Below are positions 5,237-51,477 of a stretch of DNA of 64,000 bases, piece by piece. The DNA comes from Ruminiclostridium sp. (GTDB lineage Bacteria; Bacillota; Clostridia; Oscillospirales; Ruminococcaceae). The DNA lies in the NCBI GenBank assembly GCA_017942025.1, contig JAGAVH010000077.1, positions 18,889 to 82,888 on the forward strand, given 5' to 3'. The notes below the pieces were generated by a model. The model saw only the letters and a list, made by a program, of their open reading frames with translations. It had not been told where the DNA came from and did not search any database. Every line of letters starts with the position of its first letter. Within the stretch, counting starts at the first letter, position 1. The translations under genes and the position numbers were made by a program.

Positions 5237-5264
5237 ATTATACTAAAAATTTATTTCTCATCAA
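5237..5264 (-). promoter_or_regulatory. Possible promoter of spoVT
   Basis: TTGATG (5259-5264) and TATAAT (5237-5242) on the minus strand have a 16-base spacer. The -35 overlaps the 3' end of the TIR gene. The leader would be about 95 bases. Confidence 0.45.
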
Positions 5265-27511: not shown

Positions 27512-27958
27512 ATGAAAAGCTTGGAAAAAACGCAGTTGAAAAGGCTTATACAAGAGTTTATGAGATATATTTTAGTAGGCGGTATAGCATTTGTTGCAGA
27601 CTCCGGCTCGTTATTTCTTCTCAGAGAATTCTTGTTTAAAGACGAAAATGGATTAGGTTTGTTTATATCAGCCGCACTTGGTTTTGTTATCGGGTTGATT
27701 ACAAATTATATTCTTTCGGTTTTATTTGTTTTCAGAGGAGAAGACAACAAGAACAGTGGTAAATCTGTGGAATCGTTTATTGTATTTGCTGTAATCGGTG
27801 TTGTTGGGCTGGGACTTACAGAGCTTGGTATGTACGTAGGGGTGTTTCTTATGCATATGCACTATCTATTTACAAAAATTATAGTTGCGGGCATTGTTCT
27901 GGTATGGAATTACAGTGCACGAAAAATACTGGTATTCGGAAGAGGTAATGCTCAATGA
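27512..27958 (+). CDS. GtrA-like membrane protein 1
   Basis: The 148-residue protein has four membrane helices in the GtrA pattern ([20 protein letters not shown], then [19 protein letters not shown], and a final [11 protein letters not shown]). GtrA proteins are thought to flip polyprenyl-phosphate-linked sugars. GGGGAGG lies only two bases before the ATG at 27512, so the TTG at 27521 may be the true start. Its stop overlaps the next gene by 4 bases (ATGA). Confidence 0.85.
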
Positions 27959-29541
27959 AGAATGTGATAATAATCGGCGCCGGACCTGCGGGACTCACTG
28001 CGGCTTATACATTGCTTAAAGAGGGTAAAGATATTCACCCTGTTGTAGTAGAAGCAAGTGGAATTATAGGCGGTATTTCCCGTACAGAACGATATAAAGG
28101 GAATAGAATCGACATTGGTGGACATCGCTTTTTTTCAAAAGATAAAGAGATAATGAAGTTATGGACTGATATACTTCCTTTGCAGGGAGCACCATCAAAA
28201 GATGATATAATTCTAGGCAGAACGCATACTTTTTCTGATGATATAAGTGTAGACCCCGAAAAAACTGATGATGTATTTCTTGCCCGGACTCGCGTATCAA
28301 GAATATATTACCGGCATCGTTTTTTTGATTATCCCATTTCCTTGAAGCCTAGGACGTTTATAAATATGGGCTTTTGCAACACTATAAAGGCAGGATTTGG
28401 ATATATTGGAAGCGTTATACATAAATTGCCTGAAGATTCTCTGGAGAATTTTTATATAAACAGATTCGGCAGACCGTTATATGAAATGTTTTTTGAAGAC
28501 TATACCGAAAAATTATGGGGAGTTCATCCATCTGATATTTCGGCTGAATGGGGCGCTCAAAGAGTTAAAGGACTTTCAGTTCGCAAGGTGATTACATCTG
28601 CTCTTGCCAAACCCTTCAGAAAGAAAAACACTAAAGTTGAAACCTCGCTGATCGAGGAATTCTATTATCCTAAGTATGGGCCCGGTCAGCTTTGGGAAAA
28701 GCTTGCAAAAATAAACTGTGACATGGGCGCTGAATTACTTATGCACCGCAGTGTAGTTGGTATAAAAACCGAAGGAAACAGGGTTATTGGTGTTACAGTG
28801 AAAAATACAGATAAGTCTTCATCTGATTTCGGCAAATGTGAAGATATTTTATGTGATGAAGTAATTTCAACAATGGCTGTAAAGGATCTTATAGCTGCAA
28901 TACCTGATGTTCCAAAAAATATCTACGATATCGCAAATAAACTACCATACCGTGATTTTATTACTGTCGGACTGTTAATGAGCAGGCTTGAGATTCAGAA
29001 TAAAACAAAAATGAAAACCATCAACAATAACGTACCTGATTGCTGGATATATATTCAGGACAGAAACGTAAAAGTAGGACGACTTCAGATATTCAATAAC
29101 TGGTCACCCTATATGGTTGAAGATATGGAAAAATATGTCTGGGTTGGTATGGAGTATTTCTGTAATGAAGGTGATGATATGTGGAATACACCTTCAGATA
29201 AGTTTATAGATTTTGCTATTGGCGAACTTGAAAAAGTAGGTATTATCAAACGATCAAATGTCAAGGACAGTTATACCACAAAAGTAAAAAAGGCTTATCC
29301 GGCTTATTTTGGTACATATGCTCAGTTTGGCGAAGTCAGAAGTTATCTTGATTCTTACGAAAATTTATTCTGTGCCGGACGAAACGGACAGCACCGCTAT
29401 AACAATATGGATCACTCTATGTTGACGGGAATCTATGCGGCGCGTTGTATTATAAAAGGCAATCCCGATAAAGAAAGTGTATGGAATGTAAATACCGAAA
29501 AAGAATATCACGAAATATCCGAAAGTGAGGAAAAAGAATAA
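27955..29541 (+). CDS. FAD-dependent oxidoreductase, UDP-galactopyranose-mutase/protoporphyrinogen-oxidase-like
   Basis: The 528-residue protein starts with an FAD-binding dinucleotide fold ([15 protein letters not shown], residues 4-18), followed by [15 protein letters not shown] and the late [17 protein letters not shown]. It also has the [16 protein letters not shown] and [11 protein letters not shown] stretches of a family often placed beside glycosyltransferases. A redox or mutase step on a sugar or polyprenyl sugar is plausible but unproven. It is coupled to gtrA on one side and overlaps the GT-C gene on the other. Confidence 0.8.
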
Positions 29542-31054
29542 TAAAGTGGATTCCATTAAAAAAAAACAGAAATTAATTTATGCGGCTGTTGCTTTTGTGT
29601 ATGCTCTGATTACTTTGATTGGAGTAATCAATCATGAAATATGGTATGATGAAGCACAAGCATGGTGCGTTGCACGTGATAATGATATCTTTGGTATAGT
29701 AAATCATCTTAAATTTGAAGGACATCCGATACTATGGTATCTGATTATATTGCCGTTTGCTAAAATGGGACTCTCCTGCGTTTCAATCGGTTTCATCAGT
29801 TGGGCTATATCCGTCTTGACAGTTGGACTTATACTTTTCAAGATGAAGCTTTCTTTCAAAATGAAATTGTTTACAGTATTTTCCTGCGGCTTTTTGTTTT
29901 ATAACAGTATCACTTCAAGACCTTATTGTGTTATTGTATTGCTTTTGGTACTTATATCGCTGATATATCCACGTAGAAAAGAACATCCTGTAATGTTCGG
30001 CGTACTTGTGGCTTTGCTTGCAAATACACATATATGTATGAGCGGACTTGTCGGATTTCTTGGCATACAGATGATATATGAACTCTTTACAGAATGGAAA
30101 ACCTCACGTTGTAGCAGGAATTTTTGCAGATTAGGAGGGTTAGGAATAGCAGGTGTCGGTGTCGTTGCACTTGTCCTTCCTTTGTTTTTGTCGTTGCAAA
30201 GCAATCATGCGGTGACTGATTCGCCTCTGACCATCGGAAATGTTATTCCGAGATTGTTTAATTCATTTGATAATATCGGGAAAAATATTGCGATACAGAT
30301 TCCAGGGCTTAATAGTATGCTTGCCAGCATTATAGCGATATTTCTGATTGCGATGTTTATACTTATGCGTCACTACCGTAAGGGCTTAATTGCAATGCTG
30401 ATGTTTACGGCTTTTTATATCATTGCTACACAACTGATATATACTGTAATGCAGCCTACAAGAGCTATAACCTTTGTTTATACACTTTTATTGATATACT
30501 ATACCGCTAAGGAAAATGAAACACCCAATAAAAGCAAACAGAAGGACAACTCAAAAGCTGATTCGAAGATTTTAAAACAAATCACTGATAGTATTTTAAA
30601 AATCGATGCTTGCTTTGACAAGGGGATTGTGGTAATTTTTTCTGTTATAATGTGTATTTCTTCTGTAAGAGGTATATATTGGTATGTGAAAGATGTTATT
30701 GGTAACTATTCGCTTTCTGTTGTTACTGCAGATTATATCAGAGAAGAATTGCCCGAGGGGTCTGTATTTGTGGTAGATAATTATCATTTTGTTCCGATTT
30801 CGGCGGAGCTTCCTGAGTATTATTTTTATTTCGAATCCAATAATGAGTTTTTGACATATGCGCCCAATATATCTACTAAGGATATGAAAACTGATAAAGA
30901 GAAAACAAAGAATGATCTGGAAAAATATACAAATATCTATCGGATGAGGTTTGTAGCTGACGAAGATGGTGATGCACTGTTTTCTGAGTCATTTTCTCCG
31001 GATATTATGTATATATCCAGAGCGATAAGTATAACAGAATTTTCTTTTGAATAA
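29525..31054 (+). CDS. GT-C (GT39/ArnT-like) membrane glycosyltransferase
   Basis: The 509-residue protein has about 11 membrane helices and the first outer loop of polyprenyl-sugar-using GT-C enzymes: [12 protein letters not shown] with the Asp-Glu pair, followed by [10 protein letters not shown]. It should move a sugar from a lipid phosphate to an outside acceptor. The start is uncertain: GTG at 29525 overlaps the flavoenzyme gene by 17 bases, while a second GTG at 29546 lies just past that gene's stop. Neither has a strong ribosome site. Confidence 0.78.
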
Positions 31055-31100: not shown

Positions 31101-31129
31101 TTGACAAATTTCCTTACGAGTGATATAAT
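31101..31129 (+). promoter_or_regulatory. Perfect-consensus promoter of the glycan array
   Basis: TTGACA (31101-31106), a 17-base spacer, TATAAT (31124-31129) and a TGA extended -10. It should start transcription near 31136. Confidence 0.78.
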
Positions 31130-31179
31130 TAAAAATGTGTGAAAAAACAAAGTTTTTACTTTTTAAAGGAATTATTTAC

Positions 31180-31581
31180 ATGTCTAAATCGTTTATAACA
31201 AGTATATTCAATAAATACAGAAATCTGATTTTATATGTGTTTTTTGGCGTCGCCGCTGTACTGATAGATTATGGTGTTTTTTTTGTTCTTGAGTTTTTTG
31301 ATATTATACCAAATCCCGAAATCTCAAGTATTATAGGTAATGTTTGTGGATTTATATTTACATTCACAACTAATACTTTTATTAATTTCAAAAAGAGTAA
31401 TAAAATTGTCAGACGCTTTTTATCATATGCTTTAGTATGCATTCTTGGAGCAGGTGTATCAACATTACTCATATATTTGTTGAAGTCGTATATAAATCTA
31501 TACATACTTAAAATCGGTGTAATGGGTGTAGTTTGTATACTTCAGTTTATACTGAATAAATTCATTACATATAGAGACTGA
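31180..31581 (+). CDS. GtrA-like membrane protein 2
   Basis: The 133-residue protein has four helices with the GtrA layout (LILYVFFGVAAVLIDYGVFF, NVCGFIFTFTTNTFINFKKS, final FILNKFITYRD). It is a second putative flippase, only distantly similar to the one at 27512, suggesting a different lipid-linked sugar. The ATG at 31180 has AAAGGA before it. The longer frame from 31135 would begin at the predicted transcription start, so it is rejected. Confidence 0.83.
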   Translation: MSKSFITSIFNKYRNLILYVFFGVAAVLIDYGVFFVLEFFDIIPNPEISSIIGNVCGFIFTFTTNTFINFKKSNKIVRRFLSYALVCILGAGVSTLLIYLLKSYINLYILKIGVMGVVCILQFILNKFITYRD

Positions 31582-31616: not shown

Positions 31617-32330
31617 ATGTCAATCAGTGTTGTTTTGCTTGCGTATAAAGAGGCAGAAAATCTTAAAGTTCTTTTACCGCAGATAAAGGAGAAAATTGAA
31701 GCAACCGGTGAAAATTATGAAATGATTATAGTTGATACTGCCCAGCCGCTTGATAATACATCTGAAGTGTGTGAACAGTTCGGGGCAAGGTATGTAAATC
31801 AGCGTTATCCCGGATTTGGCGGTGCTTTCAGAACAGGAATCGAAGAAGCACAATTTGATAAGTTTTTAATTATGGATAGTGATGGTTCTCATAATCCTGT
31901 TTATATTACAGATATATACAATCGTTTTTGTCAGGGTGCAGATCTTGTTATTGGTTCGCGTTATGTCAAAGGTGGAAAGACCAACGACGCATTTTCTTCA
32001 ATTGTTATGTCTAAAATTCTCAATACAGTATTCAGAATTGTTATCGGTGTCAAAGCAAAGGATATTTCGACAGATTTCAGAATGTACGATACCGCACAGT
32101 TGAAGAAGACTGAACTGACATGTCAGAATTACGATGTACTTCAGGAAGTGCTTATGAGGCTCAAGCAGAATAACAAAAAGCTTGTTATTGCGGAAGTACC
32201 TATTTCATTTGACAAAAGAATGTTCGGAGAATCAAAGCGTAGGCTTATACCATTTATTATAGGTTATATAAAAACTATGTTCAGACTTATAGCTATCAGA
32301 ATATCATCGTGCTTTACTAAAAGGAAATAA
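31617..32330 (+). CDS. GT2 family polyprenol-phosphate glycosyltransferase (DPM1-like)
   Basis: The 237-residue protein has the GT-A fold landmarks of dolichol/polyprenol-phosphate mannosyltransferases: VVLLAYKEAENLKVLLPQI, the metal-binding DSDGSHNP (about residues 84-91), RYVKGG and the closing KRMFGESKRR. It probably makes undecaprenyl-phosphate-sugar from a nucleotide sugar. The C-terminal end has one amphipathic or membrane-bound helix at most. AAAGGA precedes the ATG. Confidence 0.87.
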   Translation: MSISVVLLAYKEAENLKVLLPQIKEKIEATGENYEMIIVDTAQPLDNTSEVCEQFGARYVNQRYPGFGGAFRTGIEEAQFDKFLIMDSDGSHNPVYITDIYNRFCQGADLVIGSRYVKGGKTNDAFSSIVMSKILNTVFRIVIGVKAKDISTDFRMYDTAQLKKTELTCQNYDVLQEVLMRLKQNNKKLVIAEVPISFDKRMFGESKRRLIPFIIGYIKTMFRLIAIRISSCFTKRK

Positions 32331-32333
32331 GCT

Positions 32334-33890
32334 ATGAAAGATGCTTTAAAGGTTCATATAAAATCGAATTATAAATATTATATAATTCTGTTGGCATTAG
32401 CTTTGATGCATATTGTTCTTTTTTTTCTGTGTTGTGCGGAAGATATAATAAATTATGACAGCTCATATCAGTATTTTCTGACATTACATGATTTTGACGA
32501 AATTTTCAGATTGCTTCCGGAAGATTATAGCCCACCGTTTTATGCAGTTATATTGAAGCTATGGACTATGCTTTTCGGTGAAACACTTATTGTTATGAGA
32601 AGTCTTTCTCTCGTGGCTATGCTCGGCATGGCTTTTATTGCGTTATTTCCTGTTCGTGCCGCATTTGGTAATAAAACGGCTATTGTTAGCTCGTTACTGT
32701 TTGCATTTTCCAGTTTGAATTTTACCTTAATTCGTGAAATCCGCCCGACTGTTTTTGCCTTCTTTTTAGTAACGGCCGGGGCGGTGTATTTTTATTTGTC
32801 TTTTTTTCGCGAATACAGATATTCCTATATCTGTATGACAGTTTTTTCTGTTCTTGCAATGTACACACATAATGTCGGTATGCTCTCAATGCTATCGTTT
32901 TACATTATAGCTATTATTTTTTCAATTTGCACAAAGCGCTACGACAAAATGCGTAAATTTTTCATAAGCGGAGCAATCTGTGCTGTAGTGTATATTCCAT
33001 GGTTAATAGTAGTATTAAAACAGTTTGGCAATGTGCTTAATAATTATTGGAAGGGAACAGACCCGACCTTATCCAAGATACTTTCGTGGTCTGTGTGGAG
33101 TAATTTTATTGGGTCTGAGAACAATATTCTACTTCTTTTTGTAATTCTCCTGATAACAGCAGCGGTGCTTATTGTTACATTCTGCAAAATCCTGAATAAC
33201 TCTAAGAAGAAAAATGGAGAAAAGACAGAAAAAGAGTGCAAAAATCCGGATATTAAACAATATTTAATTAAAAGCCTGTTTGTTGTACTTTTGTTCGTAG
33301 GTCCTGTTGTAACACTTGTATGCTTCTGTGAGTTTGTATATCCTATTATTACGGCTCGTTATTTCTATATATTTGCCGGTATTGCATTGCTTATTATAGC
33401 ATTGATCATAGTTCATTGTGATAATAAGATTGTACAGTTTGTTTTTGTGGGCGTTATAAGTGTAAATATGGCATTATCTGTGTATAACACCAAGGTTTTG
33501 CAGGATGAATCTGATTTTTCAAAAATGATTACTTATATCGATTCAGATTCCGAAGGACAACCTGCTTTCCTTCATTCTCACGAGTGGACGCTCGGTATTT
33601 TTATGTATTATTTTCCTGATGCGAAACACTATATATATGATGGTACCTGGTGCGTTTTAAATACTTATGATGTTTTTTCCGGAGACGTGATTGATATCGG
33701 AGCAGTGGAAAATATAAAAAATTACGAGGACAGTTTTTATGTAATTGATATGCATTTTCCTGACACAGATGAACCGGTAACTGATTCCTTGCGCAGGTAT
33801 GAAGATTTTGAGTTTGCTGATTGCGGTGTATACACAGAATCATATACATTTCTGAAGAAATGGCTTCTTGTAAAAGTCGAATCGATATAA
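32334..33890 (+). CDS. Tandem GT-C-like membrane protein, copy 1
   Basis: This 518-residue protein has about ten helices. It and the next three genes share INYDSSYQYFLTLH near residue 40, LLPEDYSPPFYAVILKLW soon after, FPVRAAFG near 105, an IREIRPTVFAFF helix, MYTHNVGML, and a late outer motif, FLHSHEWTLGIFMYYFPDA. The topology equals GT39-type transferases, but the usual Asp-Glu pair reads Asp-Ser (YDSS). It probably transfers a polyprenyl-linked sugar to a wall glycan. The start ATG has AAAAGGA upstream, 4 bases after the GT2 stop. Confidence 0.78.
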   Translation: MKDALKVHIKSNYKYYIILLALALMHIVLFFLCCAEDIINYDSSYQYFLTLHDFDEIFRLLPEDYSPPFYAVILKLWTMLFGETLIVMRSLSLVAMLGMAFIALFPVRAAFGNKTAIVSSLLFAFSSLNFTLIREIRPTVFAFFLVTAGAVYFYLSFFREYRYSYICMTVFSVLAMYTHNVGMLSMLSFYIIAIIFSICTKRYDKMRKFFISGAICAVVYIPWLIVVLKQFGNVLNNYWKGTDPTLSKILSWSVWSNFIGSENNILLLFVILLITAAVLIVTFCKILNNSKKKNGEKTEKECKNPDIKQYLIKSLFVVLLFVGPVVTLVCFCEFVYPIITARYFYIFAGIALLIIALIIVHCDNKIVQFVFVGVISVNMALSVYNTKVLQDESDFSKMITYIDSDSEGQPAFLHSHEWTLGIFMYYFPDAKHYIYDGTWCVLNTYDVFSGDVIDIGAVENIKNYEDSFYVIDMHFPDTDEPVTDSLRRYEDFEFADCGVYTESYTFLKKWLLVKVESI

Positions 33891-33924
33891 TATGATATTT
33901 GTGTATTAAAAGGGGATAGATGGA

Positions 33925-35487
33925 TTGAAATTTGTTCAGATAATAAAAAACAACATAAGTTTAGTATATGCCATGCTCTGCGTTGTGTTTGCTGTAGGTG
34001 TAATAGTTTTCATTTTCCCACAGTGCACCATCGATTATATCAATTATGACAGCAGTTATCAATATTTTCTGACACAGCATTCTATGGCAGAGATATGGGA
34101 GCTGTTGCCTCAGGATTACAGCCCACCGCTTTATGCTGTGTTGCTTAAAATCTATACAATGATTTTCGGCAACAGTCTATTTGTAATGAGAACCTTTTCG
34201 TTGTTTGCGGTTGGCGGAATGCTGTGGCTTGCTTTTTTTCCTGTAAGAGCGGCATTCGGATGCAAAACTTCATTTGTATGCGGAGTTATGGTTTTTTCTA
34301 ATGCTATAGTGTATAGAATGCTTCCTGAAATACGTCCTACCATTTTTGGTATGTTTTTTATGATGGCGATAGCTGTATATGCATATATTGCCTTTTTCCA
34401 GGATAAAAAATATGCTTATATATGCCTGACTGTTTTTTCGGTTTTAGGTATGTACACTCATAATATCACAATGTTAGGCGCACTTGGGGTGTATGTAGTT
34501 TCATTGTTGTTTTGCCTGATAAAAAGGAATGTTTCAAAATTTAAAAAATTCTTTATAAGCGGATTAGTATGTGCGGTTATATATATACCGTGGCTTATTG
34601 TTGTTTTTAGGCAATTTGGTAATGTACAGGAGAACTTCTGGTCAACAAATATATCAACAGATACAGTTTTCAGATGGCTGTTCTTTGATTTTTTCAGCAT
34701 AGGAGTCCTTACTCCTTTTGGTAGTGTACTTGTTATCGTATCACTTTTACTTATAGCAGCGGCGGTAATTGTCGTACTCCTTGCTGTCAGAAATCGTAAA
34801 TTACCAGAAACTAAAACCGAGATAGCGGATTCGGTAGAAAAAAATCAGAGCATTCTATCACTTCCTTTTCTTGTGTGTGAATTGCTTTTTCCGATTGCTC
34901 TGATGGTTGGTTTTCATTACTTATGTTATCCTCTTGCAAGCAGAAGATATATGTTTATTTACAGTATTTTACTTGCAGTAATAATTTCTGTGGCAGTAAC
35001 AAAATATCTTCATAAGCTTGTTCCTGTTGCATACTGCGTATTAGCGATTATAAATTGCTGTTATAACAATGTTGCTGTCAGAGATGATATTTCCAAAAGT
35101 GACGCCTATGTTGTTTTTGAAAAAATAAAAAATGAAAATCCTGATGGTAAAATAGCATTTCTTCATACTCACGAATTCTTCTTGGGCATAATGTCCTATT
35201 ATTTTCCGGATGCAGAACATTATGTGTGTGACGAAACTTTTACAGTACTTAATACATACGATGTTTTTACAACCAACATTACAAATGTCGGCAGTATAGA
35301 AAACATATGGAATTACACCGATGAATTCTATATGTGGAGCGATTATAACTATGAGGAATATTGCACTTTTGATAAAGCTAAGGTGTTGTTATCTCCTGAT
35401 AATATAGAATGTAATCCGGATAAATATTATAAACAGGCATATACAACGTGTGACTGGATATTACCTTATAAACTTTCCAGAGAATAA
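33925..35487 (+). CDS. Tandem GT-C-like membrane protein, copy 2
   Basis: The 520-residue paralogue has INYDSSYQYFLTQHSMAEIW, LLPQDYSPPLYAVLLKIY, FPVRAAFG, MLPEIRPTIFGMFF, MYTHNITML and FLHTHEFFLGIMSYYFPDA. The first third is nearly the same as copy 3, the C-terminal outer domain less so. The start is a TTG at 33925, with AGGGGATA 8 bases before it; no in-frame ATG fits the ribosome site. The intergenic gap to copy 1 is 34 bases. Confidence 0.78.
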   Translation: MKFVQIIKNNISLVYAMLCVVFAVGVIVFIFPQCTIDYINYDSSYQYFLTQHSMAEIWELLPQDYSPPLYAVLLKIYTMIFGNSLFVMRTFSLFAVGGMLWLAFFPVRAAFGCKTSFVCGVMVFSNAIVYRMLPEIRPTIFGMFFMMAIAVYAYIAFFQDKKYAYICLTVFSVLGMYTHNITMLGALGVYVVSLLFCLIKRNVSKFKKFFISGLVCAVIYIPWLIVVFRQFGNVQENFWSTNISTDTVFRWLFFDFFSIGVLTPFGSVLVIVSLLLIAAAVIVVLLAVRNRKLPETKTEIADSVEKNQSILSLPFLVCELLFPIALMVGFHYLCYPLASRRYMFIYSILLAVIISVAVTKYLHKLVPVAYCVLAIINCCYNNVAVRDDISKSDAYVVFEKIKNENPDGKIAFLHTHEFFLGIMSYYFPDAEHYVCDETFTVLNTYDVFTTNITNVGSIENIWNYTDEFYMWSDYNYEEYCTFDKAKVLLSPDNIECNPDKYYKQAYTTCDWILPYKLSRE

Positions 35488-35509
35488 ACTTCAAAACGAG
35501 GCGATTTAT

Positions 35510-37069
35510 TTGAAAATTAAAGAGTGGTTGATAAAAAATTATTTATTTGTCATTATATGGGTGCTATGTACGACAATTCTGAGTGTTTTTGTCTTTCCGA
35601 AATTTTCTGCTGATTGCATAAACTACGATAGTAGTTATCAGTATTTTCTTACACAACATTCCGTTGCAGAGATATGGGAGCTGCTACCTCAGGATTATAG
35701 TCCTCCTGTTTATGCATTGCTTTTAAAATTTTATACTATGATATTCGGAAATACGCTGTTTATAATGCGTACAATGAATGTGATTATTATATCAGCTATT
35801 TTTTTGATAACACTTTTTCCTTTCAGAACTGCATTTGGTACAAAGGCATCGATTGTATATACGATATCTGTGTTTTGTTCTGCAACGTTATTAAACCAGG
35901 TTCATGAAATACGTCCTACTTTACTGGCTTTTTTTGCAGTTATCGGGATAGCGACTTATGCTTATCTGGTGTATTTTCGTACAAAAAAAGCATACTACAT
36001 AGGATTTACTGTATTTGTGATATTGGGTATGTACATTCACAATATTGTAATGCTTGTAGCACTGGGTATTTATGTGCTGATGTTATTGTTTTCTCTGGTA
36101 GAAAAGGATTATAAAAAGCTTAAATCAATTTTTATAAGCGGAATAATTGCGGCGGTTGTATATATACCATGGCTGATTGTTGTATTCGGTCAGTTTGAAA
36201 ATGCAAAATCCAGTTTTATAGAAATAATTCTCAATTTTGATATAGTTTATAAATGGCTTGTATCAAACATTATATTAACGCTTGACAATAATTTTATAGG
36301 AAGCTTATTGCTTGTTGCCTTTTCATTGGTGTTATGTTTTGCTGTAGTCGGACTAATTGACTGGAAAAAATTAAAAGGTGCAAAAACTGTTAAAGAAATT
36401 ATGCATGCCGATAAAGCAAGATATAAAACTCTGATATTTGTATGCGGAGAATTGATTCTTTCTTTAGTTATTGTTTTCGCGTTTCATTTCATTGCATATC
36501 CGCTTATTTCGGAAAGATACATATATATAATCGGTATGATTTTACTAATGGTTATATCGGTTATTGTAGCTGAAATGAGTCCTAAAATATTTGCTGTTGT
36601 TTTCTCTGTTCTTTTTATTGTAAATGGTACTCTGTCAGTGCTGAAGGTTCAGGAAAAAGCTGACTCTGCAACTATGTCAACTATGGTTGAAAATATAAAA
36701 AAAGAAAATCCGGATGGAAAAATTGTATTTCTTCATACTCATGAGTGGACGATAGGAACGCTTAATTATTATTTCCCTGATGCAGAGCATTACATTTACG
36801 ACAAAACCTTTACTGTTCTTAACGATATGAGTGTTATCAGTAAAAATATCGTGGATGTAGGTGAAATAGAAAATATCTGGAATTATACCGATAAAGTGTA
36901 TGTGTTCGAGCCTGAGGGCACCTGGGAGGATACATATTCTTATGAAGAAATAATTGAGCTACTTGATCCTGATACTATAAATAAACATGTGCAATACATA
37001 AATATGTATTCCTATCTTCAGGTGTGTTGTCCTGTTTTACTGGAAAAATCAAATGCTTTGACGGAGTAA
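35510..37069 (+). CDS. Tandem GT-C-like membrane protein, copy 3
   Basis: The paralogue of 519 residues has INYDSSYQYFLTQHSVAEIW, LLPQDYSPPVYALLLKFY, FPFRTAFG, VHEIRPTLLAFF, MYIHNIVML and FLHTHEWTIGTLNYYFPDA. I place the start at the TTG 35510, because ACGAGG lies 8 bases before it and the resulting length matches the other copies. A longer frame from 35450 would overlap copy 2. TTG starts thus occur in two neighbouring copies. Confidence 0.77.
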   Translation: MKIKEWLIKNYLFVIIWVLCTTILSVFVFPKFSADCINYDSSYQYFLTQHSVAEIWELLPQDYSPPVYALLLKFYTMIFGNTLFIMRTMNVIIISAIFLITLFPFRTAFGTKASIVYTISVFCSATLLNQVHEIRPTLLAFFAVIGIATYAYLVYFRTKKAYYIGFTVFVILGMYIHNIVMLVALGIYVLMLLFSLVEKDYKKLKSIFISGIIAAVVYIPWLIVVFGQFENAKSSFIEIILNFDIVYKWLVSNIILTLDNNFIGSLLLVAFSLVLCFAVVGLIDWKKLKGAKTVKEIMHADKARYKTLIFVCGELILSLVIVFAFHFIAYPLISERYIYIIGMILLMVISVIVAEMSPKIFAVVFSVLFIVNGTLSVLKVQEKADSATMSTMVENIKKENPDGKIVFLHTHEWTIGTLNYYFPDAEHYIYDKTFTVLNDMSVISKNIVDVGEIENIWNYTDKVYVFEPEGTWEDTYSYEEIIELLDPDTINKHVQYINMYSYLQVCCPVLLEKSNALTE

Positions 37070-37081
37070 GAGGTGTAAATA

Positions 37082-38608
37082 ATGCGTTATCGTATGAGTG
37101 TGATATTGTATTCTGTAGCAATGGCGGTATTATGCTTTATAATTTTTCCGCTTTCTGCTTCAGAAGACATATTTTATGACAGCTCATATCAGTATTTTCT
37201 TACACAACATAACTTTGCTGAAATTACACAGCTTATCCCGGAGGATTACAGCCCTCCGCTCTATGCGTATTTACTGAAATTATTTACGCTTGTTTTTGGA
37301 GATTCGCTTTTTGCAATGCGAGCGTTTTCACTGGTGGCAGTAGGGGGAATGCTTTATTTATCAACTTTTGTTGCGAGAAGAGCGTTTGGTGACGTTCCCT
37401 CTGTTATCTGCACCATATTGATTTTATGTTCAACTGTGAATTTACGAATTCTTTCTGATATACGCCCGTTGATTTTTGCAATGTTTTTTAATATGGCGCT
37501 GGTTTTATATGCATATTTGTCATATAAAGAAAATAAAACATATGCATATATATGTATGACAATTTTTGCGATAATGGCAATGTACACACATTATATTGCA
37601 TTGCTTTCGGCGTTTGGCGTTTATGTTACCGTAATCCTAATTTCGCTGGTAAAGAAGGAGTATAATAAATTCAAGAGATTCTTTGTGTCAGGTGTTATAT
37701 GCGCGGCGACATATATACCATGGCTTGCAGTATTAGCCGGTCAGCTCGGAAATGTAAAAGATCACTATTGGACGGTTAAATTCAGCTTTGATTCAGCACT
37801 TGAGTATATTTTATGGCGACCGTTTCAGGTAGAAAATACTACAATGGCTTTTATGAATTTAGTTATAAAGCTGTTTATATGTGTAGCTTTTGTAGTAGCT
37901 TTGATTATATTTATGAGAAGCGATAAAGTAAAAAATGTTACTCTGAAGAAGTTTTGGGCAGTATTAAAAGAAGAGGGAATAGGTAACGGATTATTGCTTG
38001 TATTATTGCTTGTGATTCCTGTTCTGATGTTTGCTTTTTTTGCAATCGTAATATATCCTGCCGCATCTCAAAGATATTTCTTTATTTTTCAGCCGATCTG
38101 GATGATAATTCTGTCCGTTTTTCTTGGGAAGATTTGTCCTCGTAAACTATCGTGTTGTGTTATAGCTGTAATTGTTTTTAATTTCTGTACAGCGTCGGTA
38201 ACTCATTATACACAAATTCAAAATAATACTCTTGAAGAAATGAATAGTCAGATTGTATCGAAGGATGGAGAAGCGCCTGCTTTCTTACATCTTCACGAAG
38301 GTACTCTGGGAATAATGTCCTATTATTTCCCTGAAGCAAGGCATTATGTGTGTTCAGATACATATACGGTGTTGCGCACATACGACATATTCACGACAGA
38401 TATACGCAGTATTGATGATATATGTGATATAGCAGATTTCGAGAGTAGTTTTTATATTTTTGACAGCAATTACACAAGCGCATTCCGGAATGACGAATAT
38501 GAAATTGAATTTGTAGGTGACTACAATTCGTCGTACGGCCTTTATGCATCAGGTTTTGGTCTCAATAAAATAACTTTGGTAAATAGCGATGTGTCGCTTG
38601 AAAATTGA
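37082..38608 (+). CDS. Tandem GT-C-like membrane protein, copy 4
   Basis: The 508-residue paralogue is the most divergent by eye: IFYDSSYQYFLTQHNFAEI, LIPEDYSPPLYAYLLKLF, ARRAFG, LSDIRPLIFAMFF, MYTHYIALL and FLHLHEGTLGIMSYYFPEA. It keeps the DSS and SPP core but lacks the N of INYD. Copies 1-4 follow one another without terminators and lead into gmd 30 bases later, so one transcript may run from 31.1 to 41.7 kb. Confidence 0.77.
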   Translation: MRYRMSVILYSVAMAVLCFIIFPLSASEDIFYDSSYQYFLTQHNFAEITQLIPEDYSPPLYAYLLKLFTLVFGDSLFAMRAFSLVAVGGMLYLSTFVARRAFGDVPSVICTILILCSTVNLRILSDIRPLIFAMFFNMALVLYAYLSYKENKTYAYICMTIFAIMAMYTHYIALLSAFGVYVTVILISLVKKEYNKFKRFFVSGVICAATYIPWLAVLAGQLGNVKDHYWTVKFSFDSALEYILWRPFQVENTTMAFMNLVIKLFICVAFVVALIIFMRSDKVKNVTLKKFWAVLKEEGIGNGLLLVLLLVIPVLMFAFFAIVIYPAASQRYFFIFQPIWMIILSVFLGKICPRKLSCCVIAVIVFNFCTASVTHYTQIQNNTLEEMNSQIVSKDGEAPAFLHLHEGTLGIMSYYFPEARHYVCSDTYTVLRTYDIFTTDIRSIDDICDIADFESSFYIFDSNYTSAFRNDEYEIEFVGDYNSSYGLYASGFGLNKITLVNSDVSLEN

Positions 38609-38611
38609 TAA

Positions 38612-40593
<1,982 letters not shown>

Positions 40594-40611
40594 ATGAAAG
40601 GTTGTGTTATT

Positions 40612-41685
40612 ATGAAATTGTGTGCCGTTATTATGGCTGGAGGAAAAGGGGAACGATTCTGGCCTAAAAGCCGCAATGATATGCCTAAGCAGTTTCTTTC
40701 GCTTACAGGTGACGATAAAACGATGATACAAAAAACTGTATCAAGAATCAAACCGTTGATTCCAGAGGAAAACATATACATTGTAACAAATCATAGTTAT
40801 ATCGATCTTGTAAAACAGCAGTTACCGGATATTCCCGCTGAAAATATTCTTACTGAACCGATGTCAAAAAATACAGCACCATGTATCGCGCTTGCAGCGG
40901 CGGTTATTGCCGCCAGACATGGTGACGCAATAATGGTGGTTTTACCTTCTGATCACTTAATCAGATACGAAGATATGTTTGTGGACACCATCCGCCAGGC
41001 GTCTGATATAGCTATTGAAAATAATAACCTTGTTACAATAGGCATAATGCCTACTCAGGCTGAAACAGGATACGGATACATCAAATTTAAGCCAAGTGTT
41101 GAAAAACGAGGCTTTGTATATGAGGTAGAAAAGTTTGTTGAAAAACCCTCCCTTGAACTTGCCAAAGAGTATCTTTCATCAGGTAAATATTTGTGGAACA
41201 GCGGTATGTTTGTATGGAAGGTGTCGTCAATAGTTGAAAATTTCCGTCAGCATTTACCACAGGTACATAAGTTGTACGGACAAATTTTCGATTCTGCCGA
41301 TAAACCAGAAAGTGAACGTATTCTGACGGAAGCTTATAAAGGCATTGATTCCGTTTCGATTGATTTCGGTGTTATGGAGCATGCAGATAAAATTTACACT
41401 ATACCCGGAAACTTTGGTTGGGATGATGTGGGTAGCTGGCTCGCTCTTGAAAGAATCAATCAGACAAATGAGCTTGGAAACGTGGTGAAGGGTGATGTTA
41501 TCACCATTGATACCAATAACTCAATCATTGTCGGCGGTAGTAAGCTGATTGCTGTTGTTGGTATGAATGATATTGTTGTGGTCGATACAGAGGATGCCAC
41601 TTTGATTTGTGCAAAGGATAGCACACAGGACATAAAGAAAGTGATTGAGAATATCAAGATTTGTAATCGTAGAGATGTAATGTAA
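40612..41685 (+). CDS. manC: Mannose-1-phosphate guanylyltransferase
   Basis: The 357-residue protein has the nucleotidyltransferase loop AVIMAGGKGERFWPKSR (residues 5-21), LPSDHLI, FVEKPSLE and WNSGMFVWK, all typical of GDP-mannose pyrophosphorylases. The isomerase half of longer ManC/AlgA proteins is absent. It makes GDP-mannose from mannose-1-P and GTP, feeding gmd and perhaps the DPM-like transferase. The ATG at 40612 has AAAGG 10 bases before it; an earlier ATG at 40594 directly follows the rmd stop and has none. Confidence 0.92.
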   Translation: MKLCAVIMAGGKGERFWPKSRNDMPKQFLSLTGDDKTMIQKTVSRIKPLIPEENIYIVTNHSYIDLVKQQLPDIPAENILTEPMSKNTAPCIALAAAVIAARHGDAIMVVLPSDHLIRYEDMFVDTIRQASDIAIENNNLVTIGIMPTQAETGYGYIKFKPSVEKRGFVYEVEKFVEKPSLELAKEYLSSGKYLWNSGMFVWKVSSIVENFRQHLPQVHKLYGQIFDSADKPESERILTEAYKGIDSVSIDFGVMEHADKIYTIPGNFGWDDVGSWLALERINQTNELGNVVKGDVITIDTNNSIIVGGSKLIAVVGMNDIVVVDTEDATLICAKDSTQDIKKVIENIKICNRRDVM

Positions 41686-41703: not shown

Positions 41704-41862
41704 TTATGGGAACTTGTTCCCATAAAGCAACCGATAGGTTGCAGGTGCGAAGCACAAACATATATAACAAGGTTCACTCAGCCGTCGAAATTTTCGTTTT
41801 CGTTAGTGGCATAAGGGTCTTATAAATTAAGCCCACCGACTAAGTCGGTGGGCTTAATTTTA
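41704..41862 (+). ncRNA. Candidate small structured RNA, about 155 nt
   Basis: Between the extended -10 and a strong terminator lies a row of hairpins: TATGGGAAC/GTTCCCATA (41705-41713 with 41716-41724), GCAACC/GGTTGC (41727-41732 with 41737-41742), GTGC/GCAC (41745-41748 with 41752-41755), ATAAG/CTTAT near 41811-41822, and the 16-bp terminator stem. No open frame of useful size fits it. The first hairpin begins at the predicted start point, as in a 5'-protected RNA. It could be an independent RNA, a processed 3' UTR of manC, or a remnant of an IS200/IS605 element. No known RNA family was recognised. Confidence 0.45.
41825..41859. terminator. Strong bidirectional terminator
   Basis: A perfect 16-bp stem (41825-41840 with 41844-41859) around a three-base TAA loop is followed by TTTAA on the plus strand. 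It lies between manC or the candidate RNA and the convergent adaptor gene. Confidence 0.82.
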
Positions 41863-42882: not shown

Positions 42883-44043
42883 TTATGTACGGGTAATTAT
42901 TTCCAGACACATTCTTCCGTTGTGATAAGGACACTTCCAAGGGTCTACAACAGGCTTGAAGTCAGCGGGAATATCATCGTCTGTAAGCTGTGAGTGCCAT
43001 TCTCCGCCTTCTCTTGTGTCGACTATTTTTGTTTTGATATAGTTCCATAATGAGAGAGCAATATCAAGATATTTATCGTTATTATACCTCTGATATGCAT
43101 TGTAGAAGCCTACAACGCCTTCTGCCTGCACCCACCAGATATGCCAGGTGTTTATAACGCCTTTTTCTACTTCGTTATTAAGCCTGCCGTTGTTCATAGC
43201 ACGTTGTGCAATATTCTCAACAACCACTTTATTCATGTTGGACGCTTTTTGTGAAAGCTCAGCATCGCCGAGAACATCGCAGGCTCTGTCAACAAGCCAG
43301 GTAGCTTCGATGTCGTGACCGTAGGAATAGATATCACCGATTTCATTAAGATGCTTATCAAAGAATACAAGGAGCTTTCCGTTTTCCTTGTCATAGATTT
43401 TGTCAATCATAATTTGGAGCTGGAATTTAAGGCAGTTTGCTACTTCCTGATTCTTGCATACACGATAAAGCTCTGTGTAGGCTTCGATGAGGTGCAGGGT
43501 AGTGTTCATAGTTTTGTCTGCCATAAGACCATTTTCAGAAAGTGCATCGTTTTCAATAAGCTCCCAGGTTCTGGATAATGCCTCGAGATAAGCAATCTCA
43601 TCTCTGCATTTATCTTCTACGGTTCTGAATACATCAAGAGCAAGATTAAGTGCATTTTTATCCTTTGAAGCATCATAATAGCTGGACATAGCATAGATGA
43701 AAAATGCCTGACAGTATGTGTGCTTCATAGAGTCGTTTACTGTGCCATCGGCGTTCATCATCCAGTAAACACCGCCGTTTTCCTTATCAACACAGTAGGT
43801 TGATAAGAACTCGTATGCGTGCTTTGCTTTTTCAAGACATGCTTCGTCTTTTAAAACAAGATAGCAATTAGAGTAGAACCATAAAATTCTTGAATGAAGG
43901 ATAACTCCCTTGGGAGCATCCTTATCAAGCTTTAAATCGTTGGACAGATAGCCGTAGAATCCGCCCTTTTCTGTATCAGCGAGCTGATTCCAGAAGGGGA
44001 TTATGTGTTCTGTGAGTTCTTTTTGGATTTCCGTTTTGAACAT
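42883..44043 (-). CDS. Cellobiose 2-epimerase
   Basis: The 386-residue protein is very close in pattern to the Ruminococcus albus enzyme: TEHIIPFWNQL, GVILHSRILWFYSN, HAYEFL, GGVYWMM, SYGHDIEATWL, WWVQAEGVVGF and the C-terminal PWKCPYHNGRMCLEI. The fold is an (alpha/alpha)6 barrel with catalytic histidines in the last-named motifs. It turns cellobiose into glucosyl-mannose and mannobiose into mannosyl-glucose, linking cellulose or mannan oligomers to phosphorolysis. It has no signal peptide. AAGGAG precedes the ATG. The gene lies 27 bases after secA. Confidence 0.93.
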   Translation of the reverse strand: MFKTEIQKELTEHIIPFWNQLADTEKGGFYGYLSNDLKLDKDAPKGVILHSRILWFYSNCYLVLKDEACLEKAKHAYEFLSTYCVDKENGGVYWMMNADGTVNDSMKHTYCQAFFIYAMSSYYDASKDKNALNLALDVFRTVEDKCRDEIAYLEALSRTWELIENDALSENGLMADKTMNTTLHLIEAYTELYRVCKNQEVANCLKFQLQIMIDKIYDKENGKLLVFFDKHLNEIGDIYSYGHDIEATWLVDRACDVLGDAELSQKASNMNKVVVENIAQRAMNNGRLNNEVEKGVINTWHIWWVQAEGVVGFYNAYQRYNNDKYLDIALSLWNYIKTKIVDTREGGEWHSQLTDDDIPADFKPVVDPWKCPYHNGRMCLEIITRT

Positions 44044-47783: not shown

Positions 47784-48842
47784 ATGGATAAACTTAAAGT
47801 TCTTGTTGACAGGCTTTATGACACCCATCATCTCGAAAAGGATGAATATGTAACTCTTATAGAAAATCGTGACAGCATAAAGGATTACGTTTTTAGGCTT
47901 TCATCAGCAGTCAGGGAAAAGCATTATGGTAAGGATGTTTATATAAGGGGACTTATCGAGTTTACAAGCTATTGTAAGAATAATTGCTATTATTGCGGCA
48001 TACGAGCAGGAAACAAGGATGCAAAACGTTACCGACTCAGCAAAGAACAGATACTTGAATGCTGTGAGACGGGTTATGCTCTCGGCTTCAGAACCTTTGT
48101 ACTGCAGGGCGGTGAAGACCCTTATTACACAGATGATATTATATGTGATATTATAGGAGAAATAAAATCCCGTTATCCCGATTGTGCGGTTACACTTTCG
48201 ATAGGTGAAAAAAGCGAGGACAGCTATAGAAAGTTTTTTGAAGCCGGAGTAGACAGATATCTTCTTCGCCACGAAACAGCAAACTGTGAGCATTACAGCA
48301 AGCTTCATCCAAATCCGCTTACAGCGGAAAACAGACAGAAATGTCTTTTTAATTTGAAAAAAACAGGATTCCAGACAGGTGCAGGTTTTATGGTAGGTTC
48401 GCCATATCAGACAAACGAACATCTTGCAGAAGATTTGCTTTTCTTGGAGAAGTTACAGCCTGAGATGGTAGGAATCGGACCATTTATACCACATCACGCA
48501 ACTCCCTTTGCGGATATGCCACAGGGTACCGCTGAGCTTTCGATATTTATGCTCGCTCTTGTAAGACTTATTCTGCCTACTGCATTGCTACCTGCTACAA
48601 CAGCCCTCGGAACTATACTTCCAAACGGCAGAGAGCTTGCGCTGAAGGTTGGTGCCAACGTAGTGATGCCGAATCTGTCACCAACGGACGTAAGAAGCAA
48701 ATATCTGCTTTATGATAATAAAATAAGCACCGGCGAAGAATCAGCGCAGAGTGTAAAAAGTCTTGAATGCAGAGTTTTATCTGCAGGATATAAAGTAGTC
48801 AAAACCAGAGGTGATCACGCCTCTTTTACAGAAAGGAAATAA
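47784..48842 (+). CDS. hydE: [FeFe]-hydrogenase maturase HydE
   Basis: The 352-residue radical SAM enzyme has the cluster motif CKNNCYYCGIR near residues 63-73 and the HydE landmarks FVLQGGEDPYY, LLRHETAN and VGIGPFIPHHATPFAD. It processes the HydG-made iron-cysteine-CO/CN synthon toward the two-iron H-cluster precursor. The next gene starts 3 bases after its stop. Confidence 0.94.
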   Translation: MDKLKVLVDRLYDTHHLEKDEYVTLIENRDSIKDYVFRLSSAVREKHYGKDVYIRGLIEFTSYCKNNCYYCGIRAGNKDAKRYRLSKEQILECCETGYALGFRTFVLQGGEDPYYTDDIICDIIGEIKSRYPDCAVTLSIGEKSEDSYRKFFEAGVDRYLLRHETANCEHYSKLHPNPLTAENRQKCLFNLKKTGFQTGAGFMVGSPYQTNEHLAEDLLFLEKLQPEMVGIGPFIPHHATPFADMPQGTAELSIFMLALVRLILPTALLPATTALGTILPNGRELALKVGANVVMPNLSPTDVRSKYLLYDNKISTGEESAQSVKSLECRVLSAGYKVVKTRGDHASFTERK

Positions 48843-48845
48843 ATT

Positions 48846-50264
48846 ATGTACAACCCAAAATCACTTAAAGCAGAAGAGTTTATCAGCCACGAGGAAATTA
48901 TGGAAACTCTTCAGTATGCAGAAGAAAACAAGAATAACGAAGCGCTTATTGACAGTATTCTTGAAAAGGCAAGAGAGAGAAAGGGACTTTCACACAGAGA
49001 TGCCGCAGTTCTTCTTGATTGCGAGATTCCTGAAAAGAACGAGGAAATTTATGCTCTTGCACAGCAGATAAAGAAGGATTTTTACGGCAACAGAATAGTT
49101 ATGTTTGCGCCGCTTTATCTTTCCAACTACTGCGTAAACGGATGCCTCTACTGCCCTTACCACGCAAAGAACAAGACTATCTGCCGTAAAAAGCTTACTC
49201 AGGAGGAAATAAAGGCAGAGGTCATCGCACTTCAGGATATGGGACACAAAAGACTTGCTCTTGAAGCAGGCGAGGATCCCGTGAATAACCCTATCGAGTA
49301 CATTCTTGAAAGCATAAAGACTATCTATTCTATAAAGCATAAGAACGGTGCTATCCGCAGGGTAAACGTAAACATTGCCGCTACAACGGTTGAAAATTAC
49401 AGAAAGCTCAAGGATGCAGGAATAGGCACATATATTCTTTTCCAGGAGACCTACCACAAAGAAAGCTATGAGCGTTTACATCCCACAGGTCCTAAGCACA
49501 ACTATGCATACCATACAGAAGCTATGGACAGAGCTATGGAGGGCGGTATTGACGATGTAGGCATCGGCGCTTTATTCGGACTTGAACTTTACAGATATGA
49601 GTTTGCAGGCCTTTTAATGCACGCTGAACACCTTGAAGCAGTACACGGCGTAGGTCCTCACACTATTTCAGTCCCCAGAGTAAGAAGAGCAGATGATATC
49701 GATCCCGATGAATTTGATAACGGTATCAGCGATGATCAGTTTGCAAAGATTGTTGCTTGTCTCAGAATTGCAGTTCCTTACACAGGTATGATTGTATCAA
49801 CAAGAGAAAGCCAGAAGAGCAGAGAAAAGGTGTTACAGCTTGGCGTTTCACAGATAAGCGGCGGCTCCAAGACGAGTGTAGGCGGCTATGCAGAGCCTGA
49901 AGAGGAAGAGGATAACTCTGCACAGTTCGACGTATCCGATACCCGTACACTTGACGAAATAGTAAACTGGCTTATGAGACTCGGGTATATTCCTTCCTTC
50001 TGTACAGCTTGCTACAGAGAGGGAAGAACCGGCGACAGATTTATGAGCCTTTGCAAGTCAGGTCAGATTCAGAACTGCTGTCACCCCAACGCTCTTATGA
50101 CATTAAAGGAATATCTCGAAGACTATGCAAGCGATGACACAAAGAAAATAGGTGAAGAGCTTATCGCAAAGGAGCTTTATAATATTCCTAAGGATAAAGT
50201 AAGACAGATTGCAATGGAATACATCGATAACATCAAGAACGGACAGAGAGATTTCAGATTCTAA
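48846..50264 (+). CDS. hydG: [FeFe]-hydrogenase maturase HydG
   Basis: The 472-residue radical SAM tyrosine lyase has the N-terminal cluster motif CVNGCLYC (Cys96, 100, 103) and the C-terminal auxiliary cluster motif (CTAC near 386-389 and a third Cys about 22 residues on), plus HPTGPKHNYAYH. It cleaves tyrosine to give CO and cyanide bound to iron. Codon use is more biased (AAG, CTT, GAA) than in hydE or hydF, suggesting higher expression. Confidence 0.95.
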   Translation: MYNPKSLKAEEFISHEEIMETLQYAEENKNNEALIDSILEKARERKGLSHRDAAVLLDCEIPEKNEEIYALAQQIKKDFYGNRIVMFAPLYLSNYCVNGCLYCPYHAKNKTICRKKLTQEEIKAEVIALQDMGHKRLALEAGEDPVNNPIEYILESIKTIYSIKHKNGAIRRVNVNIAATTVENYRKLKDAGIGTYILFQETYHKESYERLHPTGPKHNYAYHTEAMDRAMEGGIDDVGIGALFGLELYRYEFAGLLMHAEHLEAVHGVGPHTISVPRVRRADDIDPDEFDNGISDDQFAKIVACLRIAVPYTGMIVSTRESQKSREKVLQLGVSQISGGSKTSVGGYAEPEEEEDNSAQFDVSDTRTLDEIVNWLMRLGYIPSFCTACYREGRTGDRFMSLCKSGQIQNCCHPNALMTLKEYLEDYASDDTKKIGEELIAKELYNIPKDKVRQIAMEYIDNIKNGQRDFRF

Positions 50265-50277
50265 AGGAAGGTAAACT

Positions 50278-51477
50278 ATGAGCCTTAATTCTACTCCCAG
50301 CGGAGAAAGAATCCATATAGGAATTTTCGGCAGAAGAAATGCCGGTAAATCAAGTCTTATAAATGCGATTACAGGTCAGGAACTGGCGGTGGTATCTGAT
50401 ACAGCAGGTACTACTACTGACCCTGTTTCCAAGGCTATGGAGCTTTTACCCTTAGGTCCTGTTATGTTAACCGATACCGCAGGTATCGACGACGTGGGCG
50501 AACTTGGAGCACTCCGTATAAAGAAAAGTCTTGAGGTACTTTATAAAACGGATATCGCCTTACTCGTAACGGATAGTCTTATCGGTGAAAACGAATATGA
50601 TAAGGAAATAGCCGAGAAGCTGAAAAAGCATAATATTCCTTATATCAGAGTGTTCACTAAGTCTGATCTGGCTGAACGTAACGATGATAAACAAACCGGT
50701 GTAATATATGTTGACAGCGTAACGGGCAAGAATATAAATGAGCTTAAAGAGCTTATTGCATCTACGTTACAGCTTAAAGACGAGGATAAGAAAATCTGTG
50801 CAGATTTACTGTCTCCTCTTGATACTGTTGTGCTTGTAGTACCGATAGACGCTTCTGCTCCTAAAGGCAGGCTTATATTACCCCAACAGCAGACTATCAG
50901 GGATATTCTTGAAGCAGGTGCAATTAGCGTTGTATGCAGAGATACCGAGGTTAAAGCAGCGTTAGAAAAGCTTTCTGTAAAGCCGAAACTTGTCATAACC
51001 GATAGTCAGGCATTTGGCAAAGTATCAAAGGATGTACCTGATGATATTATGCTGACGTCCTTTTCGATTCTTTTTGCAAGATACAAGGGAAATCTCAAAA
51101 AGAACGTAGAAGGTGTAAAAGCGCTTGATTCTTTATCCGACGGAGATACTATACTTATTTCGGAAGGCTGTACACATCACAGACAATGTGAGGATATCGG
51201 AACAGTAAAAATTCCTGCCTGGGTAAAGAAGTATACCGGTAAAGATGTAAAATTTGAATTTACATCAGGCGGCACTTTCCCTGAAGATTTGTCGAAATAT
51301 AAAATGATTATTCATTGCGGTGCTTGTACGCTCAGTGAAAGGGAAATGAAGTACAGAATTTCATGTGCTGCTGAGCAGAATATCCCTATAACCAATTACG
51401 GAATAGCGATAGCATATATGAATGGTATTCTGAAGAGAAGCGTTAAGCCCTTTGATGAAATTTATTCTCTTTTATAA
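50278..51477 (+). CDS. hydF: [FeFe]-hydrogenase maturase GTPase HydF
   Basis: The 399-residue protein has an N-terminal GTPase (GRRNAGKS near residues 14-21, DTAG, TKSD), a dimerisation domain, and a C-terminal cluster-binding domain with CTHHRQC (about 298-304) and HCGAC (about 347-351). It is the scaffold that loads the two-iron subcluster into the hydrogenase. AAGGAAGG precedes the ATG. The hydrogenase subunits themselves are not in this window. Confidence 0.95.
   Translation: MSLNSTPSGERIHIGIFGRRNAGKSSLINAITGQELAVVSDTAGTTTDPVSKAMELLPLGPVMLTDTAGIDDVGELGALRIKKSLEVLYKTDIALLVTDSLIGENEYDKEIAEKLKKHNIPYIRVFTKSDLAERNDDKQTGVIYVDSVTGKNINELKELIASTLQLKDEDKKICADLLSPLDTVVLVVPIDASAPKGRLILPQQQTIRDILEAGAISVVCRDTEVKAALEKLSVKPKLVITDSQAFGKVSKDVPDDIMLTSFSILFARYKGNLKKNVEGVKALDSLSDGDTILISEGCTHHRQCEDIGTVKIPAWVKKYTGKDVKFEFTSGGTFPEDLSKYKMIIHCGACTLSEREMKYRISCAAEQNIPITNYGIAIAYMNGILKRSVKPFDEIYSLL

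Follow-up and report, generated by a model that had tools for sequence, protein, structure and literature searches.

Four tandem GT-C-like membrane proteins in a candidate extracytoplasmic glycosylation operon of Ruminiclostridium sp.

Why would a bacterium encode four related, glycosyltransferase-like membrane proteins one after another? The question is raised by a 64,000-nucleotide stretch of a Ruminiclostridium sp. genome (assembly GCA_017942025.1, contig JAGAVH010000077.1, positions 18,889 to 82,888 of the forward strand), hereafter the window. At window positions 32334-38608 we identified four complete, consecutive plus-strand open reading frames (ORFs) encoding proteins of 518, 520, 519 and 508 aa, with intergenic gaps of 12-34 bases. 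We refer to them as GTC1 to GTC4, after the GT-C superfamily of glycosyltransferases. They are flanked by probable genes for sugar activation and lipid charging, and on balance we favor a three-component extracytoplasmic glycosylation operon in which four acceptor-side enzymes draw on one lipid-linked donor.

Paralogy and predicted fold

Pairwise BLASTP comparison of GTC1-4 gave 34-45% identity over 88-95% of the query, with E values of 8e-83 to 2e-141 for an assumed database size of 1e8. These values are far beyond chance and identify the proteins as paralogs, as the original prediction, made from the sequence alone, had proposed for four tandem genes of these sizes. The 519 aa of GTC3 are counted from a TTG at 35510; the longest frame begins at a GTG at 35450. 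The motifs listed in that prediction are present as YDSSYQYFLT, DYSPPxYA, IRP, MY(T/I)H and FLHxHE...YYFP(D/E)A, but two were given too narrowly, as GTC4 reads IRPL and YYFPEA. As also predicted, the Asp-Glu (DE) pair of GT39 enzymes reads Asp-Ser in all four, whereas a membrane protein encoded from 29525 keeps Asp-Glu (YDEAQAW). The description of the latter as an ordinary GT-C is not borne out by profile: at E ≤ 1 no model of Pfam or NCBIfam fits it, and BLASTP at E ≤ 10 gave no match between it and GTC1-4. GC content is lower in the four genes (0.342 versus 0.381), for which the codons of membrane proteins may alone be responsible.

All four proteins match Pfam PMT_2, three above the gathering cut-off and GTC3 below it (17.9 versus 26.1 bits). 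The domain was found at E ≤ 0.01 in 30 of 32 aligned proteins of the subfamily and its relatives. A profile of the four proteins searched against PDB returned only a terpene synthase at E 0.028, which we took as chance, and a profile of the 32 proteins gave no match at E ≤ 1. The link to solved GT-C enzymes therefore comes from fold comparison only. An AlphaFold model of GTC2, built from nine sequences, has a GT-C membrane fold, and its best three Foldseek matches are to ALG12 and ALG9; Foldseek TM-scores are 0.3-0.5. The model, the structural matches and PMT_2 bear out the earlier description of the proteins as GT-C-like. By predicted fold GTC1-4 belong to the GT-C superfamily; by the DE motif they would fall outside GT39.

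Predicted donor pathway

GTC1-4 lie within a row of genes that extends to 41685 and encodes, in order, a GtrA-type protein, a GT2 glycosyltransferase, the four GT-Cs, Gmd, an Rmd-like reductase and a ManC-like guanylyltransferase (Table 1). The row, apparently one operon, has gaps of at most 36 bases and lies behind one strong promoter-like site. A GT-A charging enzyme, a GtrA-type protein and a GT-C, the gene set of three-component glycosylation systems, are thus encoded together. The best solved match of the GT2 is the DPMS of P. furiosus (5mlz, E 5e-23), and a simple hydropathy scan predicted no membrane helix in it. In the P. furiosus enzyme the matched domain comprises residues 23-247 of 374, with further sequence in the same chain. 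The Pfam name of PF04138 couples GtrA with the DPMS membrane domain, and the GT2 and GtrA may be a split form of a DPMS-like enzyme.

The following mechanism is likely in outline. ManC, Gmd and Rmd would produce GDP-mannose and GDP-D-rhamnose, the GT2 would place one of these sugars on polyprenyl phosphate, and GtrA would move the charged lipid across the membrane. GTC1-4 would then use the inverting mechanism of GT-C enzymes to pass the sugar to different acceptors, or to different sites on a surface glycan or glycoprotein. Observed here are the gene set, the predicted fold of GTC2, retention of the general catalytic residues, replacement of a Glu, a His and a Met, and the co-occurrence of GT2 and GT-C genes across genomes; the activity, the residue roles, the donor sugar, the flipping, the acceptor and the sharing of one donor by all four are inferred.

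Originally, the copies were proposed either to add different sugars or to act at different positions of one glycan. The first option is not favored because the operon encodes a single charging enzyme, and the next-best match to it in the genome reaches only E 1.9e-6; the second would fit better. With one predicted donor route tied to four acceptor-side enzymes, donor versus acceptor specificity becomes directly testable.

As to the sugar, the GT2 is the only glycosyltransferase recognized in the operon apart from the GT-Cs, so GDP-D-rhamnose from Gmd and Rmd has one evident consumer there. This favors polyprenyl-phosphate-D-rhamnose, as does a subfamily copy (L029) in G315, a genome of the same class, which lies amid Gmd-, Rmd- and ManC-like genes. 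Mannose is favored by the other loci, which mostly lack adjacent Gmd and Rmd, and by the mannose specificity of the best solved GT2 relative. That the GT2 makes polyprenyl-phosphate-D-rhamnose, and that the Asp-Ser proteins are extracytoplasmic D-rhamnosyltransferases, we offer as a tentative and rather doubtful proposal. If true, the coupled replacement of Glu (by Ser/Asn/Thr), His (by Ser) and Met (by Pro) described below would adapt the pocket to a 6-deoxy donor or its acceptors. The clade would then be a family of GT-Cs whose lipid donor derives from GDP-D-Rha and whose activity does not depend on the second DE-motif acid. A literature search on polyprenyl-phosphate-rhamnose and GT-C gave a review on rhamnose, with none of these lipids named in its entry, which does not imply their absence from print.

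Two other assignments of function seem unlikely. GTC1-4 could be protein O-glycosyltransferases like the PMTs (protein mannosyltransferases), each with its own protein targets, rather than modifiers of glycans or lipid-linked saccharides. The structural matches to PMT, however, span residues 8-393 only, whereas those to ArnT, OST and ALG12 extend to the C-terminal end. The DE motif of GT39 is missing, PMT_2 is the only domain in common (in the first A4 member, a search at E ≤ 0.01 gave no second Pfam domain), and the acceptor cannot be deduced from the sequence. It is also improbable that GTC1-4 build a lipid-linked oligosaccharide stepwise on the outer face, one residue per copy, as ALG3, ALG9 and ALG12 do with Dol-P-Man. 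Four consecutive additions would be in keeping with four copies and a single predicted donor, and ALG12 and ALG9 head the Foldseek list, but ranking GT-C folds by E value is a poor guide to function. A fixed four-step chain is not general, because relatives have one or two copies, and in the operon we found neither a flippase nor a transferase for an oligosaccharide of this kind.

Active site residues

We compared 22 subfamily proteins (the four in the window and 18 from 14 other genomes or metagenome-assembled genome (MAG) contigs) with 10 related proteins that fall outside this clade. The latter are DE-type proteins from the class-level search described below, and were used in both the tree and the residue counts. 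Nine further matches were omitted from both (L018, L020, L021, L022, L024, L027, L028, L036 and L041); all read Asp-Glu except L027, for which the loop was not printed. The partial first copy at L005 lies outside the counted columns, and L058, on the same contig as L007, was not counted.

D42, D64, P67, R137, H179, P222-W223, Q230 and R341-Y342 are invariant in all 32 proteins, so much of the originally listed motif set (the D..PPxY segment, the Arg of IRPT and the His of MYTH) is common to the Asp-Glu relatives. Three positions change together to form a private signature: E43 is replaced by Ser (14), Asn (6) or Thr (2), and H66 by Ser and M138 by Pro in all 22, whereas the 10 outside relatives all read Glu, His and Met. 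In the distal motif, all 22 subfamily proteins have E417, versus 4/10 of the outside relatives. The protein encoded from 29525, like the DE-type relatives, retains both the Glu and a His ahead of the loop proline.

The catalytic Asp that follows the first helix of GT-C enzymes, in extracytoplasmic loop (EL) 1, is present as D42 (22/22 and 10/10). The DxD, DD or DE pattern of this loop is lacking in the subfamily, in which the next residue is Ser, Asn or Thr in every protein and the one after it Ser, Ala, Thr or Phe. The Arg of EL2, the positive residue of EL3 and the Arg of the last loop correspond to R137, H179 and R341-Y342 (32/32), with loop placement deduced from sequence order. Asp42 would act as the base, Asp64, Arg137 and His179 would line the site, and Arg341-Tyr342 would hold the phosphate. 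H66 may be at the same place as K85 of ArnT, since K85 precedes a Pro-Pro-Leu stretch that resembles HPPLYY. The available text of PMC7801869 places K85 close to where the second helix of loop 1 begins and reports that it contacts the donor phosphate.

In a mycobacterial PMT the essential residues are given as D74 (the base), D176, R441 and Y444 (PMC12331936, in the portion available). A comparison of eukaryotic GT-Cs reports, in its accessible sections, a DxD-like motif in every enzyme studied (PMC6801728). According to the available part of PMC12041525, however, a single Asp (D58) serves as the base in PimE, so the DxD-like pattern is dispensable in some GT-Cs. Because the base and the phosphate Arg remain, losing the Glu and the His next to them and to the donor would amount to a coupled change in the pocket and not to the loss of an enzyme. 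That the clade is catalytically dead and has another role (non-catalytic subunit or lipid binding), like PIG-U with its related fold, is very unlikely: the DE-motif Glu and HPP His are lost in 22/22 and GPI transamidase chains containing PIG-U are among the structural matches of the GTC2 model, but the catalytic Asp, second Asp, loop Arg and His and phosphate Arg-Tyr are invariant, the duplicates are intact and appear constrained, and PimE functions with its single Asp. The acidic pattern after the first helix is a basis on which GT-C enzymes are compared. A repeatedly duplicated clade in which the Glu and HPP His are gone and the other general catalytic residues retained offers a natural experiment that bears on the role of that pair.

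Phylogeny and distribution

A collection scan revealed three related loci. L005, from a related MAG, has two tandem copies, one of them partial, and an ORF that is GtrA-like by eye, with no phmmer match to the window GtrAs; L006 has a GT2 followed by a single GT-C; and L007 is a tandem GT-C pair in Saccharofermentans. In a sample of the class, 18 of 390 other genomes gave matches at 1e-15. The Asp-Ser form was seen only in G315, and each of the other 17 genomes has at least one printed match that reads Asp-Glu. Within the family of G315, the subfamily was detected at 1e-40 in 12 of 115 genomes, all of one genus, which includes Saccharofermentans because the G487 contig carries the same genes as, and is, the L007 contig. 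Three of these 12 (G468, G476 and G487) have tandem pairs, and the two copies of G315 lie on separate contigs. Relatives of the window array have one or two copies.

Subfamily proteins form one clade (100/100). This clade with its private signature, together with the lack of a fitting NCBIfam model for GTC1-4, supports the proposal of an undescribed subfamily. GTC2 and GTC3 are sisters (100/98), the L007 pair groups together (100/100), and the four window proteins group with the two of L005 at 89/88, below the 95 at which the tool awards a star. Tandem pairs recur in relatives and the tree groups copies, so expansion by duplication is recurrent, in agreement with the suggested growth by tandem duplication. 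In the best tree the L005 copies are nested within the window group; a window-only clade was not rejected (approximately unbiased test, p-AU 0.30), so an origin of all four copies within this lineage is neither shown nor rejected. The L007 pair (nonsynonymous divergence, dN, 0.13; synonymous divergence, dS, 1.13) seems to evolve as under constraint.

The cluster is patchily distributed. A search at 1e-20 of 59 relatives, including 35 of the same genus, detected no member of the GT-C subfamily, nor did searches at 1e-40 of samples of 393 other genomes of the order and 397 others of the phylum, with at most three candidates scored per genome. The GT2 was found in 0 of 39 congeners at 1e-15, and Gmd in 11 of 59. 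Horizontal gain of the cluster would be a guess. We also considered a mobile origin and dropped it: no relative was found among viral contigs (63 pattern matches, none a relative) or plasmids, the phage collection lying outside the search.

Co-occurrence of GT2 and GT-C genes

The GT2 was detected at E ≤ 1e-25 in 22 of the 115 genomes of the G315 family. It is present in 11 of the 12 genomes that carry the GT-C subfamily and in 11 of the 103 that do not (Fisher 1.1e-8). Counting only GT2 proteins of at least 55% identity gives 10/12 versus 7/103 (Fisher 1.5e-8). Linkage does not explain this, because in nine of the 11 genomes with both the genes lie on different contigs and in G505 they are 180 kb apart; in G507 they are side by side. 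The GT2 adjoins a GT-C in the window, at L006 and at L063 (G507). On a tree of GT2 proteins, from which that of G485 was left out and in which L063, L006 and the window were assigned to no group, the presence of the GT-C is not clustered (6 changes; 171 of 500 shuffles as low). The window GT2 is nearest by path to the one beside the L006 copy. Six GT2-adjacent genes at other loci comprise three GT87-type GT-Cs, in G540 (without the subfamily) and in G315 and G481 (with it), and three genes without a Pfam match. Because GT87-type GT-Cs adjoin the GT2 at three of the six, a GT2 product that serves several GT-Cs fits these data. The three GT87-type neighbors lie at L091, L100 and L102, respectively; at L102 a GtrA domain is fused to the GT87 protein.

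Several observations weigh against the proposed system. The structural evidence comes from one of the four copies, modeled from nine sequences, with Foldseek TM-scores of 0.3-0.5. The DE-motif Glu is absent from all 22 subfamily proteins, and in a C. glutamicum GT39 enzyme D65N or E66Q each abolished activity, with a caution from the authors on stability (available text of PMC11727336). Shared ancestry may partly underlie the co-occurrence, and several of the genomes are 69-88% complete. In G470 the GT-C occurs in the absence of the GT2, and the GT2 stands alone in 11 genomes, of which three are 95-99% complete. When these 12 discordant genomes were searched less strictly, the only addition was a fragment of 47 residues at the end of a contig in G480. 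Finally, most Saccharofermentans loci place the GT-C among genes not recognized as glycan genes.

Genomic context

Table 1. Features of the apparent operon, in window coordinates.
Feature	Position	Strand	Assignment and evidence
Sigma-70-like promoter	31101..31129	+	12/12 consensus bases, TG before -10; probable start of transcription unit
GtrA-type protein	31180..31581	+	Proposed flippase; Pfam PF04138
GT2 glycosyltransferase	31617..32330	+	DPM-synthase-like, proposed polyprenyl-phosphate sugar synthase; Pfam PF00535
GTC1	32334..33890	+	GT-C-like membrane glycosyltransferase, Asp-Ser form; Pfam PMT_2, motifs, BLASTP
GTC2	33925..35487	+	Same family as GTC1; copy with predicted structure
GTC3	35510..37069	+	Same family as GTC1; sister of GTC2; PMT_2 score under Pfam cut-off
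GTC4	37082..38608	+	Same family as GTC1; ORF, Pfam PMT_2, motifs
Gmd	38639..39664	+	GDP-mannose 4,6-dehydratase; NCBIfam TIGR01472, 486 bits versus cut-off 415
Rmd-like reductase	39661..40593	+	GDP-6-deoxy-D-lyxo-4-hexulose reductase type; best solved match 2pk3, E 1.7e-67; predicted product GDP-D-rhamnose
ManC-like protein	40594..41685	+	Mannose-1-phosphate guanylyltransferase; NCBIfam TIGR01479, 356 bits, just below cut-off 373
Perfect inverted repeat	41704..41725		After last gene; terminator-like on - strand scan only

The region shows no general enrichment of promoter-like sites (51 found versus 65.8 expected from shuffles), so the promoter call draws on the perfection and place of the site. 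The longest gtrA frame begins at 31135; the promoter and an AAAGGA ribosome-binding-like site indicate the ATG in Table 1.

Upstream, at 27955-31054, an FAD-dependent oxidase (NF005546, 773 bits versus cut-off 418) is directly followed by the membrane protein with the YDEAQAW loop. The oxidase occurs in four of 59 congeners, of which three then carry one gene, or in one case two, similar to that at 29525 and the fourth has GtrA in its place; GTC1-4 are at none of these loci. We considered the pair as part of the GTC1-4 system and dropped it, as it recurs in congeners without GTC1-4; it is a separate module.

Beside the operon, at 42883-44043 on the minus strand, is a cellobiose 2-epimerase-like protein (NF041848, 290 bits, under the cut-off of 800). 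Two radical-SAM-like proteins and a GTPase encoded in a row at 47784-51477 resemble the [FeFe]-hydrogenase maturases HydE, HydG and HydF. The protein encoded at 5251-6567 (minus strand) has an N-terminus judged by eye to be TIR-like (DIFISYRREGG...). Elsewhere in the genome (L133, contig C80), a CsbB/GtrB-like GT2 of 310 aa is followed by an ORF that is YfhO-like by eye, a canonical-looking three-component set.

Comparison with known systems

The operon would work on the same principle as the three-component systems for Gram-positive and O-antigen glycosylation. GtrA/GtrB/Gtr and CsbB/GtcA/YfhO, as described in the available parts of PMC8035078 and PMC11127046, likewise combine a GT-A lipid-charging enzyme, a GtrA-type flippase and a GT-C. 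Here, in contrast, there are four GT-Cs per charging enzyme, the GT2 is DPM-synthase-like and without predicted membrane helices, genes for GDP-mannose and GDP-D-rhamnose stand in the same row, and the GT-C is of PMT_2 rather than YfhO type. With the GT39/PMT_2 protein mannosyltransferases GTC1-4 have in common the fold, the PMT_2 match, the EL1 Asp and the late-loop Arg-Tyr; they differ in replacement of the DE-motif Glu in 22/22 and of the HPP His by Ser. Identity to ArnT is about 10%. Mycobacterial sets such as the arabinofuranosyltransferases also have several GT-Cs fed by one lipid-phosphate sugar (PMC11127046), and PimE is a mycobacterial GT-C with a single-Asp base. These belong to other GT-C families, and the accessible text of PMC11127046 and PMC12041525 describes no tandem array of close paralogs. 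A literature search whose coverage mostly excluded subscription papers found no such four-copy array. As far as could be seen, then, the clade-wide Ser/Ser/Pro signature and a four-copy array behind one charging enzyme are new, and the expansion within this known class of enzymes is genuine, coherent and somewhat unusual.
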